Shown: positions 6,398 through 12,999 of the stretch, in pieces
Layout: each line of letters opens with the position of its first letter
Position numbering within the stretch: position 1 is the first letter of the stretch
DNA from: Halalkalibacter suaedae
GTDB lineage: Bacteria; Bacillota; Bacilli; Bacillales; Bacillaceae_D
Length of the DNA stretch: 64,000 bases
Assembly (NCBI RefSeq): GCF_017939705.1
Contig: NZ_JAGKSQ010000003.1
Coordinates: 248,001 to 312,000 of the forward strand
Direction: 5' to 3'
Notes under the pieces: model-generated
The model's input: only the letters and a program-made list of their open reading frames with translations
The model's database searches: none
What the model was told of the DNA's origin: nothing
Position numbers and translations under genes: made by a program

Positions 6398-7486
6398 TCA
6401 TTCCGCTGAATTCTGTTGTGGATTGGCTTCGGTTAATTTAGACTGTACAGCCTCTAGCTTCCCTGCCATCGTTGATTGTTTATCACGTCGATCATCGATT
6501 CGAATATTTGTTGCCACTCGCTTAATACCATATGTAAATGGTACTTCATGGATCGCCTGAATTACTTCAAATAAGATTGGCAATTCTCCTTCAATTAATG
6601 TACTCATCGGTGTAAGCTGATAGTTTATTTTTCCTTCGTATGATTGAAGGACCTCTTGAATTTTTGCAACATACTGACTGACACTAGGTGTTTCGGTACC
6701 GATTGGGATAATCGTTACATCTACAATAGCCAATGATTTCTCCTCCTTCTTTGTTGATTTCCTTCTTACTATTAATCTTTCTGGAAATTCTTCTGCTGCT
6801 AGCTTGCGATAGGATTCAATTGATGCGAGGAGATGCTTGCGCTCAGGCTCCTCCGTAGTGACATAGACCTGAAGCCAATAGGAAATAGTAAGAATAGGCT
6901 TCCTAAAGAGAAAACCAACGTGCGGTAATTTCATAGATTTCTGAACAACTGGGATCATCAGTACACTACTGTATGATGCCAGCTCTATTGCCCGAAATAA
7001 AGGAAATTGTAAAATTAGAAGTACAAGACTAATGAATAGAACACTCAAGAAATAAATGACAACGGCATTCGTTGAGCAGTGTCGATTCGTAATTGCTGCT
7101 CTTTTAATAAGTGATAATCTTCCTCTTGATATAAGACCTTTGTAGCTGAATACTTTATGCTCCGCCCCATGATACTTTCTGAGTTGTTTCGGGAATATAA
7201 AGTGAGTTCCTAACATGAAATAAATTAAAAGGTAATACGGTAGTCCTTCCCATTGTAAAGCAGAGGACATCTTCGGTAAAAAAATAAGGGTAACAAGAAG
7301 AATCGGTATGATTTTAAACCACAGCGGCATGGCTAGAAATACTTGCTTCATCATTAAAGCCATCGTTTTCCCATTAACCGGCTTCACCCAACTCTGTAGA
7401 CGGCCACCTTCATGGTAGGCACATGATACATATTCTTTGCCAATATAAAAAATGCCCTTTTGGTAGGAAAGTCCTTTGACAACCAA
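6398..7486 (-). CDS. DUF1385 membrane domain fused to YqgV/MTH1187 thiamine-binding domain
   Basis: One 362-residue frame joins two families. Residues 1-235 resemble DUF1385 (YqhQ): hydrophobic helices, the KYHGAEHKVF motif near 104-113, NRHCSTNA replacing the usual RCGTS motif, and a YWLQ..TTEEP tail; the N-terminal GGQAV..G motif is absent. Residues 252-362 are a complete YqgV/MTH1187 (Thiamine_BP) domain: IVDVTIIPIGTETPSVS, YQLTPMSTLIEGEL, IDDRRDK. The full-length start is a TTG at 7486 behind GGTGGG. Inside the frame, AAGGAGG stands 8 bases before a TTG at 6733 (codon 252), exactly where free-standing YqgV begins, so a separate YqgV may also be made. It is the last gene of the TPP-riboswitch thi operon, 14 bases after the gene at 7501. 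A role in thiamine or precursor handling at the membrane is inference. Confidence 0.8.
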   Translation of the reverse strand: MVVKGLSYQKGIFYIGKEYVSCAYHEGGRLQSWVKPVNGKTMALMMKQVFLAMPLWFKIIPILLVTLIFLPKMSSALQWEGLPYYLLIYFMLGTHFIFPKQLRKYHGAEHKVFSYKGLISRGRLSLIKRAAITNRHCSTNAVVIYFLSVLFISLVLLILQFPLFRAIELASYSSVLMIPVVQKSMKLPHVGFLFRKPILTISYWLQVYVTTEEPERKHLLASIESYRKLAAEEFPERLIVRRKSTKKEEKSLAIVDVTIIPIGTETPSVSQYVAKIQEVLQSYEGKINYQLTPMSTLIEGELPILFEVIQAIHEVPFTYGIKRVATNIRIDDRRDKQSTMAGKLEAVQSKLTEANPQQNSAE

Positions 7487-7500
7487 TGATCAACCCACCT

Positions 7501-8067
7501 TTATTTAATTAGTATCCAATATGGAACATTTTCAGCTTCTCCAAAAGTCGGATCTTGAAAACTGGCATCATCTAAGTCTAAAGGAAGATGATTAGTCCAT
7601 GTATGAAGATAGCGAATCGAGATGTCTTCTGCTTTTACATTCTCCCCTGACATTACGACTTCAAATTCACCGCTATTGCCATAGCTAATTTGCTCAACCA
7701 ATTGATTACTAAACGAAAAAATTACACCGTTTTCGACAACCTTACCAGCGGTTTCTTCGATCACATCACCAGCATACAATAGCTTTAGCTCGGCAGTCTC
7801 TATGCTAAATGATTCATCCGATTCAATAAAAACACTGATATAATCATCTCCATATATCCCTTCTGAAGGCATAATTGTCCAGTCCCATTCTCCTTGAATA
7901 CGCAAGCCTTGGGATTGTTCGTCCACTTGCACATCAACCTCAATGACCTCTTTAAGTTCTTCATTTGTAAAAGTATCAGTATCACCTAAGAAATAATATC
8001 CACCTATAAACATAATAATCATTAAAATACCTGGTAAGATAAGTACTGGCTTATTTCCACTAAACAT
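7501..8067 (-). CDS. Membrane-anchored extracytoplasmic protein of the thi operon, unknown function
   Basis: A 188-residue product with an N-terminal membrane anchor (about residues 8-27, VLILPGILMIIMFIGGYYF) and an acidic outer part rich in alternating beta-type segments (IRIQ-like strands, WDWTIMPSEGIYGDD). I do not recognise the family. The ATG at 8067 directly follows the thiD stop (TAATATG), with AAAAAAGGTG as ribosome site inside thiD, so it is translationally coupled to thiD. It sits between thiD and the DUF1385-YqgV gene under the same riboswitch. A link to thiamine is inferred only from position. Confidence 0.7.
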   Translation of the reverse strand: MFSGNKPVLILPGILMIIMFIGGYYFLGDTDTFTNEELKEVIEVDVQVDEQSQGLRIQGEWDWTIMPSEGIYGDDYISVFIESDESFSIETAELKLLYAGDVIEETAGKVVENGVIFSFSNQLVEQISYGNSGEFEVVMSGENVKAEDISIRYLHTWTNHLPLDLDDASFQDPTFGEAENVPYWILIK

Positions 8068-8068
8068 A

Positions 8069-8887
8069 TTAAAGAACACCTTTTTTATTAGCTAATGTCC
8101 GATAGGCTGCGTGGTTAGTCGGCCCAATTCCATTTCCGATTTCTAAGGAATGAGAAATCGCAGATGTAATAAATTCCTTTGCTGTTTGAACAGCTTCATT
8201 AATCGGTTTGCCTTTGGCTAATTCAGCTGCTATAGCCGCTGCAAATGTGCACCCTGTGCCGTGTGTATGCTTTGTTTCAATACGTTCTGTTGCTAATTCA
8301 TGAATGTCTTGACCATCATATAATAAATCTACAGCTGGCCCTTCATGTAAATGCCCACCCTTGATCACAACATAATCCGGACCCATTTTGTGAAGTTCAA
8401 TTGCAGCATTCTTCATTTGTTCAATTGTAACGATTTCTTCTAGACCAAGTAATGTTGCTGCCTCAGGTAGATTTGGAGTAATTACTGTCGCAACCGGTAA
8501 TAGTTTTGTAACAAGGGCTTCTATTGCTTCTGTTTGAAGTAATTTTGCACCGCCCTTCGCAATCATAACTGGATCAACGACAACATTCTTCACATTATAT
8601 TGTGTTAACTTCTCAGCAACTAGAGTAATAATCTCTGCTGAAAACAGCATTCCTGTCTTGACTGCATCTGCACCGATATCAGACAGGACGGCATCAATTT
8701 GAGCTTCAATTGCTTCAAGTGACTGTGGAAATACCCCATGTACCCCGAGTGTATTTTGTGCTGTTAATGCTGTTATCACACTCATTCCAAACGTATCACG
8801 CTCTTGAAACGTTTTTAGATCTGCTTGAACCCCAGCACCTCCACCACTATCTGAACCGGCAATTGTTAGTGTTTTAGCAATTGTCAT
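8069..8887 (-). CDS. thiD: Hydroxymethylpyrimidine kinase / HMP-phosphate kinase
   Basis: Phosphorylates HMP to HMP-P and then HMP-PP, the pyrimidine partner in thiamine synthesis. Ribokinase-fold motifs are intact: GSDSGGGAGVQAD from residue 11, DPVMIAKGG near 105-113, and the catalytic anion-hole segment GTGCTFAAA at 210-218. Length 272 is usual. It lies 14 bases after thiO. In B. subtilis the same position is held by thiD of the tenA-thiD operon; a pyridoxine kinase activity is possible in this family but the operon argues for ThiD. Confidence 0.95.
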   Translation of the reverse strand: MTIAKTLTIAGSDSGGGAGVQADLKTFQERDTFGMSVITALTAQNTLGVHGVFPQSLEAIEAQIDAVLSDIGADAVKTGMLFSAEIITLVAEKLTQYNVKNVVVDPVMIAKGGAKLLQTEAIEALVTKLLPVATVITPNLPEAATLLGLEEIVTIEQMKNAAIELHKMGPDYVVIKGGHLHEGPAVDLLYDGQDIHELATERIETKHTHGTGCTFAAAIAAELAKGKPINEAVQTAKEFITSAISHSLEIGNGIGPTNHAAYRTLANKKGVL

Positions 8888-8901: not shown

Positions 8902-10011
8902 TTATGAAAATCGTTCTGGTCTACACGATGCTAACGGACCATAAATCTTACTTTCGTCAATTAAATCGGCAACAGCAATTGCGGTAACTGGACTAAGTAA
9001 TATTCCATTTCGGTAATGTCCTGTTGCAAAAATGACATGTGATGCTTGATCGAGTTTCCCTATCAGTGGGAACCCATCTTGAGTAGCTGGACGTAGACCT
9101 GCCCAAGTATGAAAAGGTGTCCTCGTTTCCAAGTGAGGGAAAACCTTTTTATTCCAATTCGTTAAACGGGCAATCCCTTTTTCAGTCACATCTGTTCTAA
9201 ACCCTGCAATGTCCTCAGATGCCCCGTTCACAAGAGTGCCATTAGCCTTTGGAACAAAGTACCCTTGGCTTGTATATACAATATGTTTTATGTCATTTTC
9301 TGGAAGATCATATGCACAGATTTGACCTCTAATTGGGTAGACAGGTATTCTAAGGCCAAACGTGTCCTGAAGTTCACTAGACCATGCCCCAGAACAAACG
9401 ACTAGGCGATCACCAGTAAATGTTTGATTATCCTTTGATTTTAATGCTACCCTTTCTTGCCATTCAACCACTTCAACAGTTTCTAGCTGATCATGAATAA
9501 TGACCCCATTCAACCGACAGGCAGTCTCAAGAGCCTTGACATAGTCAGGAGCAAAGACATGGCTTTCTTCAGGATAATACATTGCTGCAATTAAATCCTT
9601 TGAAAGAAGTGGCTCCATTTGCCGTAAGCGATTGCCAGAAATAAGCTCAGCCTCAGCTCCCCACTCTTTCTGCCAGGATTTACGTGTTTCTAGTGCTAGC
9701 ACATCAGCTTCATGATAGACAGCATGTAAACTGCCACTTTCACTATATTCAAAATCTAGTTTTGAAGCAGCTTTCACCTCTTGCTGCCACCTTTTAAAAA
9801 GACGTAAACTATCTAAACAAAGCTGGAAGAAATCGTCTGGGTCCTCCCCTATTTCTGAAAAAGGTGCGAGCATTCCAGCTGCTGCACCAGATGCCTGTCC
9901 ACCACAGACGTTTTTCTCTAGTATCGTCACTTGATGTCCTCTTTTATTTAATTCAAAGGCTGTTGCAAGACCAATGACACCGCCACCTAAAACAAGAACA
10001 TGTTCCCCCAA
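8902..10011 (-). CDS. thiO: Glycine oxidase ThiO
   Basis: FAD enzyme that oxidises glycine to the imine used for the thiazole ring. The dinucleotide fold VLVLGGGVIGLATA is at the very N-terminus and the C-terminal FATGHYRNGILLSP segment typical of ThiO is present. The start is uncertain: a GTG at 10032 has no ribosome site, whereas the TTG at 10011 has AAGGGGTGAG in front, so I chose the latter (369 residues). It starts just past the thiG stop, implying coupling. The enzyme is soluble and normal in length. Confidence 0.9.
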   Translation of the reverse strand: MGEHVLVLGGGVIGLATAFELNKRGHQVTILEKNVCGGQASGAAAGMLAPFSEIGEDPDDFFQLCLDSLRLFKRWQQEVKAASKLDFEYSESGSLHAVYHEADVLALETRKSWQKEWGAEAELISGNRLRQMEPLLSKDLIAAMYYPEESHVFAPDYVKALETACRLNGVIIHDQLETVEVVEWQERVALKSKDNQTFTGDRLVVCSGAWSSELQDTFGLRIPVYPIRGQICAYDLPENDIKHIVYTSQGYFVPKANGTLVNGASEDIAGFRTDVTEKGIARLTNWNKKVFPHLETRTPFHTWAGLRPATQDGFPLIGKLDQASHVIFATGHYRNGILLSPVTAIAVADLIDESKIYGPLASCRPERFS

Positions 10012-10037
10012 AAAACTCACCCCTTGCTTCACTGCTA

Positions 10038-10814
10038 CTAGTTAGAGATAAATGATGTAAGTCCACTACTAGCTGTTGCATACTTTTTCTTCGGTATTCG
10101 ACCTGCTTCAAATGAAAGTCTACCTGCCTCAATTGCATACTTCATCGCCTGAGCCATTTTCACAGGATCCTTCGCTTTCGCTACTGGTGTATTCATTAAC
10201 ACACCATCCGCCCCAAGCTCCATTGCTTGAGCCACATCCATTGCCGAACCCAAGCCAGCATCTACAATAATTGGCACATTAGATTGTTCGATAATTAACT
10301 GAAGATTATATGGGTTCAAAATCCCGAGTCCAGTCCCTATAGGTGCACCGCCCGGCATAACTGCAGCAGCACCAGCTTGTTCTAATTTCTTACAAAGAAC
10401 AGGATCATCCGAAGTATATGGAAGAACGATAAAACCTTCATTTACAAGAATTTCAGTTGCCTTTAATGTCTCAATTGGATCTGGTAGTAATGTTTTTTCA
10501 TCAACACTAATCTCAACCTTAATCCAATCACTTAATCCCGAAGCTTTAGCTAATCTGGCAATCCTTACTGCTTCCTCAGCAGTTTTCGCACCAGAGGTAT
10601 TAGGTAAGTAAGTGAACGGCATATCTTCTAAATGTTGCAAAATAGCATCTTCACTAGGTGCTTCTAAATTGACACGACGTATGGCAAACGTTAATACTTC
10701 TGCTCCTGATGCCTTAATCGCTTCATTCTGAACAAAAGGATTAGGATATCTTCCCGTCCCAAGGAAAAAACGAGATGAAAGCTCTTTTCCAGCTATTGTA
10801 AGTTTCTTTTCCAT
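10038..10814 (-). CDS. thiG: Thiazole synthase ThiG
   Basis: Builds the thiazole phosphate from deoxyxylulose phosphate, dehydroglycine and ThiS-thiocarboxylate. The Schiff-base lysine is Lys99 in [17 protein letters not shown] and [23 protein letters not shown] are the phosphate-binding and barrel signatures. 258 residues, complete. It follows thiS by 3 bases and precedes thiO, all under the TPP riboswitch. Expected to act as a complex with ThiS. Confidence 0.96.
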
Positions 10815-10817
10815 GGC

Positions 10818-11015
10818 TCATCCTCCTCCAACAAATTGAACTAATTCAATCTTCATTCCATCTTCAATCTCTGTCGCTTCCCACTGTGATCGATCTATAA
10901 TTTCCCCATTAACCTCAGTTACAACGAGTTGGGATTCTAGTTCAAAATGAGCAACAACCTCTGCAAGAGTACGCACAACTAAATGATGCTCATCACCATT
11001 GACAATCAATTGCAT
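10818..11015 (-). CDS. thiS: Sulfur carrier protein ThiS
   Basis: A 65-residue ubiquitin-fold sulfur carrier whose C-terminus is FVGGG, giving the Gly-Gly end that is adenylated and thiocarboxylated. It begins MQLIVNGDEH and contains VVTEVNGEIIDRSQW, both family-typical. It lies 4 bases after thiE and 3 before thiG. Activation needs ThiF, which is not in this operon but at 21922-22938. Confidence 0.95.
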   Translation of the reverse strand: MQLIVNGDEHHLVVRTLAEVVAHFELESQLVVTEVNGEIIDRSQWEATEIEDGMKIELVQFVGGG

Positions 11016-11019
11016 CTAC

Positions 11020-11646
11020 TTACACTCCCTTAGTCTCTAATTTCTGTATGAATTGTTTACAGACAGACTGGATATCTTCTGCACCAACAATTTCACTGAT
11101 CATACAAATTCTAGTTGCACCAGCTGCAAGAACTTGATCGACATTGTGAAGTTTAATCCCTCCAATTGCGACAAAAGGAATCTTGATCTCTGATGAAACT
11201 TGTCTAATATATTCTGTTGTTACAGGGTCAACCACATCGACTTTACTTTTTGTTTCAAATATTGGACCAACACCAATATAGTCCGCACCTTCTGCTTCCG
11301 CTAGGCGGGCTTCCTCAATATGATGTGTAGATAAGCCAATAATCTTATCTCCAACAAGCTTTCTCGCTTCTTGAATCGGTAAATCATCTTGTCCAATATG
11401 AATTCCGTCTGCATCAACAGCTAATGCAACATCGATGTGATCATTGACGATAAACGTTACATTATGTTTTTTCGTAAGTTCCCGCAGCTGCTTTGCCTTT
11501 TCGAATACTTCTTTTTTGCTACTCGTTTTATCTCTGAGCTGGATGATATCAACTCCACCCAAAATGGCTTCTTCCATTACATCCAGCAAGCTCTTCCCTT
11601 GATGAAACTCTTCTCCTGTAATTGCATATAACTTAAATTCTCTCAT
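11020..11646 (-). CDS. thiE: Thiamine-phosphate synthase ThiE
   Basis: Joins HMP-PP and thiazole phosphate into thiamine phosphate. A TIM-barrel of 208 residues with IIQLRDK, the FIVNDHIDVALAVDADGIHIGQDDLP region, GLSTH and GVGPIFETKSK, all in ThiE-like form. The TenI paralogue (thiazole tautomerase) often occupies this operon position but lacks the ND and GIHIGQ features, so ThiE is preferred. It is the first gene after the riboswitch; the terminator sits immediately upstream of its ATG. Confidence 0.88.
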   Translation of the reverse strand: MREFKLYAITGEEFHQGKSLLDVMEEAILGGVDIIQLRDKTSSKKEVFEKAKQLRELTKKHNVTFIVNDHIDVALAVDADGIHIGQDDLPIQEARKLVGDKIIGLSTHHIEEARLAEAEGADYIGVGPIFETKSKVDVVDPVTTEYIRQVSSEIKIPFVAIGGIKLHNVDQVLAAGATRICMISEIVGAEDIQSVCKQFIQKLETKGV

Positions 11647-11667: not shown

Positions 11668-11703
11668 TAAAAAGCCGTATCCCGAACATACGGAATACGG
11701 CTA
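11668..11703 (-). terminator. Riboswitch-controlled attenuator terminator
   Basis: Read leftward, AGCCGTATTCCGTATG and the following CGGGATACGGCT form a strong hairpin with TTTTT. It lies between the TPP aptamer and thiE, the place for the expression platform that stops transcription when TPP is bound. Confidence 0.88.
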
Positions 11704-11721
11704 CAGATGATATACTCTCAT

Positions 11722-11816
11722 TTGCATCGACTTCCCTACGCTGGTATTAGCCAGATCAGGTACGAGGGTAAAAGGATTGATCCTTTTTCTCAGTCAAAAT
11801 CGACACCCCTAGTCTT
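11722..11816 (-). promoter_or_regulatory. TPP riboswitch (THI box) for the thi operon
   Basis: Read leftward, the THI-box core is plain: ACTAGGGGTGTC, then CTGAGA, ACCC, ACCTGATCTGG, CTAATACCAGCGTAGGGAA. GACT at the 5' side pairs with AGTC at the 3' side to close helix P1. It is followed by the attenuator hairpin and thiE. TPP binding should switch off thiE-S-G-O-D and the two downstream genes. Confidence 0.97.
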
Positions 11817-11842
11817 CATTTTAAGTGCTATTCTTTGTCTCC

Positions 11843-11874: not shown

Positions 11875-12999
11875 CTACTCTCCTAGAAGATTAATGATTG
11901 ATCCCTTATTGACATCATATACTTGTTCAAATTGCTCTCCAAGTAAAATCGCTTTTCCAGAAGGTGATATCTTTAATGGAAGATTACGTTCGAACGTTGC
12001 AAGCTTCTTTTCTGAATCTTCTTCTACGTTATAGGCAATCAATTCATATCCATCAGTATAGCTAAAGAAATCACTACTGTATTTGGGACGCATGTAATAA
12101 AAGAGATTTAATTGTTTGTCATATGTGTAATAAGGTACCCACCATTGTTCGGAATACGTATTCAATATCGGCATTTCAATTTCTCTAAAGGATTCCTGGT
12201 CCTTATAAAAAGTATATGATGAGTACAGAGCATCTGGTCGGTCGACCGTCACAGTAAGAGAGAGACCTTCAGAGAAACTCATATAGGCAATGACGTCATC
12301 TTTCCAAATTGATTTCTCTCCAGTTTCAATATCAAGTTCAAAGAGTGGTGCAAAATACGTTGGTTCAATTTCATCCCACTTCAAATAGGCGACCTTTGTG
12401 TCATCAACCCATTGCATATAGGACTGTTCTAGATCAATCTCATCAATTGAACCTTCCGTTACATCGACAACATAAGATGTGAACTGCCAATCCGGTAAGA
12501 AAGCGACTAAAACAAAAGTGTTTATGTTATAAGGATTCCAGAAGACAGAATACTCCTCTCCTAAATCTCTTATAACCAATTTTTCTTCCCCTAATTGATT
12601 GACAATGGTCAATTTTGCTCCCTCTGTCTCACTTAGTGTCTGAATAGCAAAAAGAGTTGAGTCTTCATTTGTTTGTGTATCAATAATCCAATCATCCGTT
12701 TCGAAAAAAACAGAAGATTGAGTTGTGTATAGCTCGTAAGTCATAAGCTTGGAACCTTGCTCGTTTTCCTCTAAATAAAGAATCGTTTCATCATTAACCC
12801 ACCCTACTACTTCAATAAAAGATGGGGACCTCTTTTGTAAAGGGATAATTGCCGAAGCTTCTACGAAAGATTCAGGAACTTCAACCTTTTCTGACTTCTC
12901 TTTCTTTGTTAATGGGGATGGAGTTACCTCAAGTGGTTCCGCGGTTGAACATGCAGTAAGTACAAATAAAACAATCATATAAAAAAAGATGTATCTCAA
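11875..12999 (-). CDS. yqgU: YqgU-like lipoprotein
   Basis: A 374-residue lipoprotein: residues 1-16 form a signal peptide ending in the lipobox LTAC with the lipidated Cys at 17. The mature part has repeated strand-turn units with W and acidic turns (WVNDETILYLEE, WNPYNINTFVLV, WVDDTKVAYLKW), suggesting a beta-propeller. I assign YqgU on its architecture and because YqgU normally precedes YqgV; here a thi operon lies between the two. Function unknown. Its end is about 5 bases from the thi promoter. Confidence 0.75.
   Translation of the reverse strand: MRYIFFYMIVLFVLTACSTAEPLEVTPSPLTKKEKSEKVEVPESFVEASAIIPLQKRSPSFIEVVGWVNDETILYLEENEQGSKLMTYELYTTQSSVFFETDDWIIDTQTNEDSTLFAIQTLSETEGAKLTIVNQLGEEKLVIRDLGEEYSVFWNPYNINTFVLVAFLPDWQFTSYVVDVTEGSIDEIDLEQSYMQWVDDTKVAYLKWDEIEPTYFAPLFELDIETGEKSIWKDDVIAYMSFSEGLSLTVTVDRPDALYSSYTFYKDQESFREIEMPILNTYSEQWWVPYYTYDKQLNLFYYMRPKYSSDFFSYTDGYELIAYNVEEDSEKKLATFERNLPLKISPSGKAILLGEQFEQVYDVNKGSIINLLGE

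Follow-up and report, generated by a model that had tools for sequence, protein, structure and literature searches.

Genes at the locus

The window, the 64,000-nucleotide stretch of Halalkalibacter suaedae DNA analyzed here, carries on its minus strand an unbroken frame of 362 codons (7486-6398, first codon TTG) that joins a compact DUF1385 membrane domain to a YqgV domain of the MTH1187/Thiamine_BP family (fused gene, 6398..7486). Residues 1-250 comprise the DUF1385 domain and a linker (6737..7486, minus strand). A Shine-Dalgarno-like AGGTGG (7495..7500, minus strand), read directly from the sequence, serves the first start codon, TTG at 7486-7484, and adjoins the stop codon of the upstream gene. 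Within the frame, a Shine-Dalgarno sequence, AAGGAGG (6742..6748, read 6748-6742 on the minus strand and kept across 65 fused genes), is followed eight bases on by TTG (6731..6733, read 6733-6731), which is residue 252 of the fusion and residue 1 of YqgV. The YqgV frame that begins at this internal TTG (6398..6733, minus strand) has 111 codons plus the stop.

Upstream and on the same strand lie a gene for a 192-residue protein, here called U192 (7501..8079), thiD (8069..8887; TIGR00097, 365.2 bits), and thiG (10038..10814; PF05690, 372 bits at G000:C24:258065-258799 of the window genome). Three further open reading frames, found in the same order in relatives, we take from the operon order to be thiO (8902..10032), thiS (10818..11015), and thiE (11020..11646). 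The operon is headed by a TPP riboswitch aptamer (11716..11820, minus strand; RF00059, 70.8 bits, gathering threshold 54.3) with a terminator-like stem of 12 pairs just downstream of it (11673..11702, minus strand). Beyond it is yqgU, an old neighbor of yqgV (11875..12999, minus strand; PF21101, 145.4 bits; also placed by synteny). An earlier, sequence-only reading of this DNA had the fused gene closing a TPP-riboswitch operon with yqgU on the far side, and the covariance and profile matches agree with it. The close spacing of the genes suggests that a transcript from the riboswitch probably runs through to the fusion. A promoter scan performed no better than chance (20 found, 20.4 expected), and inspection of the open reading frames of the operon by eye found no ABC-type transporter.

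Domains of the fused protein

Each half of the protein scored above the curated cutoffs of its family. Pfam DUF1385 (PF07136) matched residues 36-229 at 46.5 bits (cutoff 22.1) over profile positions 35-224 of 227, Pfam Thiamine_BP (PF01910) matched residues 255-348 at 108.9 bits (cutoff 24.9), and NCBIfam TIGR00106 matched residues 253-351 at 115.8 bits (cutoff 54.7). The DUF1385 homology on which the sequence-only reading depended is thus present by HMM, as is the fusion of the two domains in one frame. An AlphaFold2 model of the fusion (mean pLDDT 93.0, pTM 0.70) contains two confident domains separated by a linker at residues 241-250 with a mean pLDDT of 61.

The compact DUF1385 domain retains the HGAEHK and NRxCST motifs and the closing LQ-TT-EP segment; HGAEHK, a downstream Cys motif, and this segment are shared with the DUF1385/YqhQ family. 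Across compact domains, HxxFP and HxAEH are invariant, HxAEHK is nearly so, and an NxxCST motif is also present. In an alignment of 28 rows, H106, A108, E109, H110, C137, S138, and T139 were invariant, K111 was present in at least 90%, and G107 in fewer. An hhalign comparison of compact with canonical DUF1385 gave a probability of 99.3 and an E value of 1.2e-20. Hydrophobic stretches, basic loops, and the model suggest about four membrane helices, the N and C termini both being cytosolic, which would make YqgV cytosolic as well. The HGAEHK motif and the downstream Cys motif in the alignment, together with membrane helices in the hydropathy profile and the model, place the domain in the same Pfam family as YqhQ, but it is not YqhQ. 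Full canonical frames are 315-334 aa, compared to about 250 aa here, and intact fusions scored about 40-59 bits while full YqhQ proteins of sister species scored about 259-273 bits; the domain of the fusion is compact, divergent, and joined to YqgV. Among control genomes, the DUF1385 family ranges from Bacillus to Thermus and Thermotoga. Canonical DUF1385 (YqhQ; L136-L145) is patchy in the window's family, being full length in 7 of 41 genomes and partial or broken in G003, G014, and G015. The window genome yielded no second DUF1385. For the DUF1385 half, a sequence search found no PDB match, and Foldseek returned nothing at an E value of 0.001.

The C-terminal domain is a whole member of the MTH1187/YqgV family (DUF77, PF01910, TIGR00106) by sequence and by fold. 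Besides scoring above both curated cutoffs, it has the ferredoxin-like fold of the family; Foldseek matched it to 1lxn (E value 1.7e-7, TMt 0.84) and also to 2eky, 1yqh, and 1vk8, and all 14 matches at an E value of 0.001 or better were MTH1187/DUF77/TM0486-type proteins. Members of this family form oligomers (dimers or tetramers). Its relatives in the outgroup are separate genes with frames of mostly about 100-130 aa, whereas here the domain is joined to a membrane domain and has its own start too. Further matches to the YqgV region in the family search were only 25-32% identical. The sole other Thiamine_BP match in the window genome is distant (30% identity), a 91-aa gene on another contig (L206 4293-4568, G000:C11), and the two genes adjoining it presumably encode deoxynucleoside kinases.

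Distribution of the fusion

Frames were checked one by one in 41 genomes of the window's family. The end-to-end fusion occupies one frame in 33 of them; the parts are separate frames in four (G029, G030, G032, and G037), the frames are broken in three (G003, G022, and G036), and one genome (G031) has neither part. A chance run-on or a sequencing error was rejected as the origin of the frame on the basis of the same 33 genomes. The search for this architecture across relatives, suggested in the sequence-only reading, also found it outside the family: in an order-wide sample, at least 31 of 299 genomes carry the fusion in one frame, in seven families (the window's and six further). Fusion-bearing genera, alkali-loving relatives of Bacillus, include Halalkalibacter, Alkalihalophilus, Alkalihalobacillus, Halalkalibacterium, Anaerobacillus, Evansella, Salipaludibacillus, Shouchella, Litchfieldia, and others, and the aligned fused proteins diverge from that of the window by up to 60% in sequence.

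A phylum search with the compact DUF1385 matched 10 other genomes of 398 at an E value of 1e-12, the best at 63.8 bits (G481) and the remainder at 48-53 bits; these matches are presumably canonical DUF1385. A plasmid search found no fusion, only MTH1187-region matches in seven Priestia plasmids. On one of these, Priestia megaterium plasmid pS188 (L180, 45129-45428), the MTH1187 gene lies among general and universal stress protein genes. Among the matches listed in the literature searched, which covered few subscription journals, no account of a DUF1385-YqgV fusion was found; one paper there, PMC3597751, contains the term DUF1385.

Conservation of the internal start

All 67 distinct fused genes encode YqgV residue 1 by a start codon (ATG in 57, TTG in 9, and GTG in 1), without a single exception among the fused rows. 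The first reading of the junction covered 71 distinct rows, including 65 fused ones. Rows L048, L119, and L172 had first been dropped, their BLAST matches not beginning at YqgV residue 1; they carry GTG, TTG, and ATG, respectively, at the junction, each behind AAGGAGG. L048 and L119 were later added to give 67 fused rows, L172 has a broken frame and stays outside the count, and L064 is counted as fused though a frameshift cuts its DUF1385 part. Every leucine at the internal start is encoded by TTG, which accounts for 14% of leucine codons, and the ATG/TTG pattern implies at least eight changes on the tree (66 scored rows of 68).

The sequence ahead of this codon is constrained as well. The anti-Shine-Dalgarno energy at the internal start averaged -10.66 kcal/mol, compared to -5.08 under synonymous recoding, with 0 of 100 replicate means below -5.88 (65 rows; this and the other energy and RNA structure tests are without L048 and L119). 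A core five-mer (AGGAG, GGAGG, or GAGGT) was present in 59 of 65 rows and lacking in 6, versus at most 20 rows in 200 replicates. Other in-frame ATG, TTG, and GTG codons (n = 1315) averaged -1.80. Of 295 codon positions, none had a stronger mean energy than the junction; a second, distinct peak (-7.40 near codon +53, null -6.54) is largely explained by amino acids. When 280 positions were ranked by their excess over the null, offsets -2 to +2 came first to fifth (z of -12.7 to -18.1), offsets 45-49 departed from the null as well (z down to -10.8), though their energies were near -2, and z values at the other positions had a standard deviation of 1.97, but the rows are related by descent, so that z values overstate certainty and are not probabilities. 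With the same reservation, local RNA structure at the junction was weaker than under synonymous recoding (z of 4.9, the highest of 10 positions tested). Part of the Shine-Dalgarno signal is shared with the junction amino acids K-E, which the null keeps fixed, and the Shine-Dalgarno sequence is kept where its amino acids differ (e.g., L032 and L058). The internal Shine-Dalgarno sequence and start codon are conserved beyond amino acid constraint. The suggestion in the sequence-only reading that a preserved internal start could yield tethered and free forms of YqgV is borne out at the level of the start itself, with a start codon in 67 of 67 genes and anti-Shine-Dalgarno pairing twice that of synonymous recoding.

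Loci with separate or missing domains

Where the two parts are separate genes, they part at the junction. In L133, L165, L166, and L167, DUF1385 ends there and YqgV starts at the same codon as the internal start of the fused genes. G032 has a single in-frame TGA just ahead of the YqgV ATG, and in G029, G030, and G037 the DUF1385 and YqgV frames overlap; all four genomes have the YqgV start at that codon. An out-of-frame overlap of the two parts occurs in another family (G171), and L169 is also a split state (overlapping frames or a single stop). The split state is nested inside the fused clade and amounts to one change in a reduced tree of 68 rows without L069, L168, L169, and L170; on a tree containing these long branches, four changes are required for the split label. 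The four rows were part of the first tree (64 rows, near-copies left out).

G031 retains glcK, aspA, thiE-S-G-O-D, and U192, followed directly by the next conserved gene; DUF1385, YqgV, and the acetyltransferase gene were not found in this stretch. A single deletion would explain this state, and the joint absence of DUF1385 and YqgV ties the two together. Because G031 keeps its thi operon, with ThiG present, while lacking both, DUF1385 and YqgV are not needed for thiamine synthesis. Two other loci have the compact DUF1385 on its own. In G264 (L168), U192 and compact DUF1385 are kept with no YqgV match, and in Brevibacillus fluminis (L069 7968-8663) the stretch examined contains a compact DUF1385 but no YqgV; DUF1385 can therefore persist without YqgV. 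The gene next to the compact DUF1385 in G264 (L168 5255-6565) presumably encodes a metallo-beta-lactamase-like hydrolase, and the genes flanking the compact DUF1385 in L069 are presumably radical-SAM-like and carbonic-anhydrase-like.

Gene neighborhood and probable order of events

The usual partner of the fusion is U192, missed by the sequence-only reading and detected in 47 of 51 neighborhood records (some genomes are represented twice). It has one predicted membrane helix (10-32) and a strand-rich domain (AlphaFold2 mean pLDDT of 93.4) that would face outward. The end of U192 falls between -11 and +38 bases from the aligned start of DUF1385 in 66 of 70 rows; of the exceptions, L009 and L010 lie at a distance of about 100 bases, and the loci of L064 and L172 are broken. 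W65, W67, P71, G77, H159, and W161 are invariant in the alignment. No Pfam family scored above its cutoff for U192. Five U192 proteins gave only weak matches (E value of 0.013 or worse) that look like chance, and membership of U192 in a known family was rejected.

Genes of thiamine synthesis are a less constant feature. Upstream thi genes were detected in 29 of the 51 records and not detected in 20; of the other two, L061 is truncated by the end of its contig and L069 belongs to the outgroup, Brevibacillus. All 20 records without a detected thi gene upstream carry compact DUF1385, with YqgV except in L168. A TPP riboswitch was found in six of eight relatives' loci scanned, and the other two (L051 and L053) have neither a riboswitch nor, as far as detected there, thi genes.

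In outgroup records with stand-alone yqgV, yqgU directly precedes it in 4 of 12, lies about 1.6 kb away in 1, and was undetected in 7, and the 4 records agree with the earlier description of yqgU as the normal neighbor of yqgV. Stand-alone yqgV in the outgroup has its own Shine-Dalgarno sequence at the same place as the internal one of the fusion. In Evansella (L056), the gene order is glcK, yqgU, U192, and the fusion. Probably, U192 and DUF1385 entered between yqgU and yqgV and DUF1385 then joined yqgV, whose start was kept; the thi operon was probably added later, in part of the group, although thi genes may instead have been lost from the lineages now lacking them. The sequence-only reading had thi genes inserted between yqgU and yqgV first and DUF1385 joined afterwards. 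We rejected this order, as the fusion is present in records with no upstream thi gene detected; because 20 of 51 records carry compact DUF1385 with no thi genes detected, the thi insertion did not cause the fusion.

Two proposed products from one gene

The fusion, its wide conservation, and the nucleotide-level constraint on its internal start are established by the comparisons above. Our reading of them, to which we assign a probability of about 0.7, is that one gene gives two in-frame products, tethered and free YqgV, which probably share an oligomer in a putative thiamine- or HMP-binding membrane assembly. Translation from the first TTG would produce a compact DUF1385 membrane protein bearing YqgV on a short flexible linker, and translation from the internal Shine-Dalgarno sequence and TTG would produce free YqgV. 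We infer that the cell makes both and that free and tethered YqgV assemble into a common oligomer. Held against the membrane's inner face near the conserved HGAEHK/NRxCST loop of DUF1385, the resulting assembly would bind thiamine or HMP, and U192 would lie on the opposite, outer face. The fusion and the thi genes of the window probably share a transcript controlled by the TPP riboswitch, so that the products would be expected at low TPP. As a guess from the YqgV domain and, in the window, the thi operon, the assembly most likely serves in the handling or uptake of thiamine or a precursor.

Internal starts of this kind have precedents. As proposed here, an in-frame internal start yields a shorter C-terminal product from a single gene in the endolysins LysIME-EF1 (PMC7098653) and CTP1L (PMC4777826), in Rpn (PMC10327210), and reportedly in Spa33 (PMC6925163). 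In LysIME-EF1, the tetramer is built from one long chain and three short ones (PMC7098653), and by analogy we hold that the long and short forms of the fusion would share an oligomer. These proteins differ from the fusion in family, and the long form of the fusion is a membrane protein. The internal start of the fusion itself was most plausibly the start of a separate gene that survived the joining.

Among other readings, the one that fares best supposes that only free YqgV is useful, the fusion being read-through between tightly coupled genes whose splitting or joining is of little consequence. The split loci L133, L165-L167, and L169, where the frames overlap or are parted by a single stop, fit this, and coupled or overlapping genes are common (PMC10666635 and PMC12548453). 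It is nevertheless unlikely, considering that the frame is kept in 33 of 41 family genomes, that the splits there trace to one change, and that G031 is without both domains together. It is more improbable still that the fusion is the sole product, its internal Shine-Dalgarno sequence and start being left over from a separate yqgV gene. Stand-alone yqgV of the outgroup does have a Shine-Dalgarno sequence of its own at that place, and internal initiation within a translated frame can be weak. However, at up to 60% protein divergence unselected silent sites should have drifted, whereas the Shine-Dalgarno signal is about twice the synonymous expectation and persists over differing amino acids (L032 and L058 again), and ATG has been replaced only by TTG or GTG. 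Least probable is that tethered YqgV is a TPP or thiamine sensor controlling DUF1385, with the free form a competing decoy rather than a fellow subunit: the TPP riboswitch above the gene, found in the window and in six of the eight relatives' loci examined, and the Rpn short forms that block the long form (PMC10327210) favor it, but no thi gene was detected in the examined stretch of 12 of the 35 genome-contig loci carrying both DUF1385 and YqgV.

The two-product reading can be extended to a role for DUF1385, tentatively and with the odds against it: DUF1385 might be the membrane part of a device for uptake or salvage of vitamin B1 precursors, in which the mixed YqgV oligomer would feed or sense ligand at the HGAEHK/NRxCST loop, with U192 as the outer partner. 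If true, this would be the first function for DUF1385 and a case of a fusion keeping an old start to set a subunit ratio. The conserved fusion to a thiamine-binding-type domain is in any case a direct lead to the role of DUF1385, and the gene offers an example, spanning many species, of a fusion with continuing constraint on its inner start. Gene callers can be expected to annotate one protein at such a locus, which would hide a second product.

Among the sources consulted, YkoF (1sbr) is the only family member found described with bound thiamin. YkoF, of the ykoC-F HMP transporter, belongs to the same superfamily of thiamin/HMP-binding domains as YqgV; it differs in being an internal repeat of the fold and in accompanying a putative ABC-type transporter (PMC3779223, PMC5627462).
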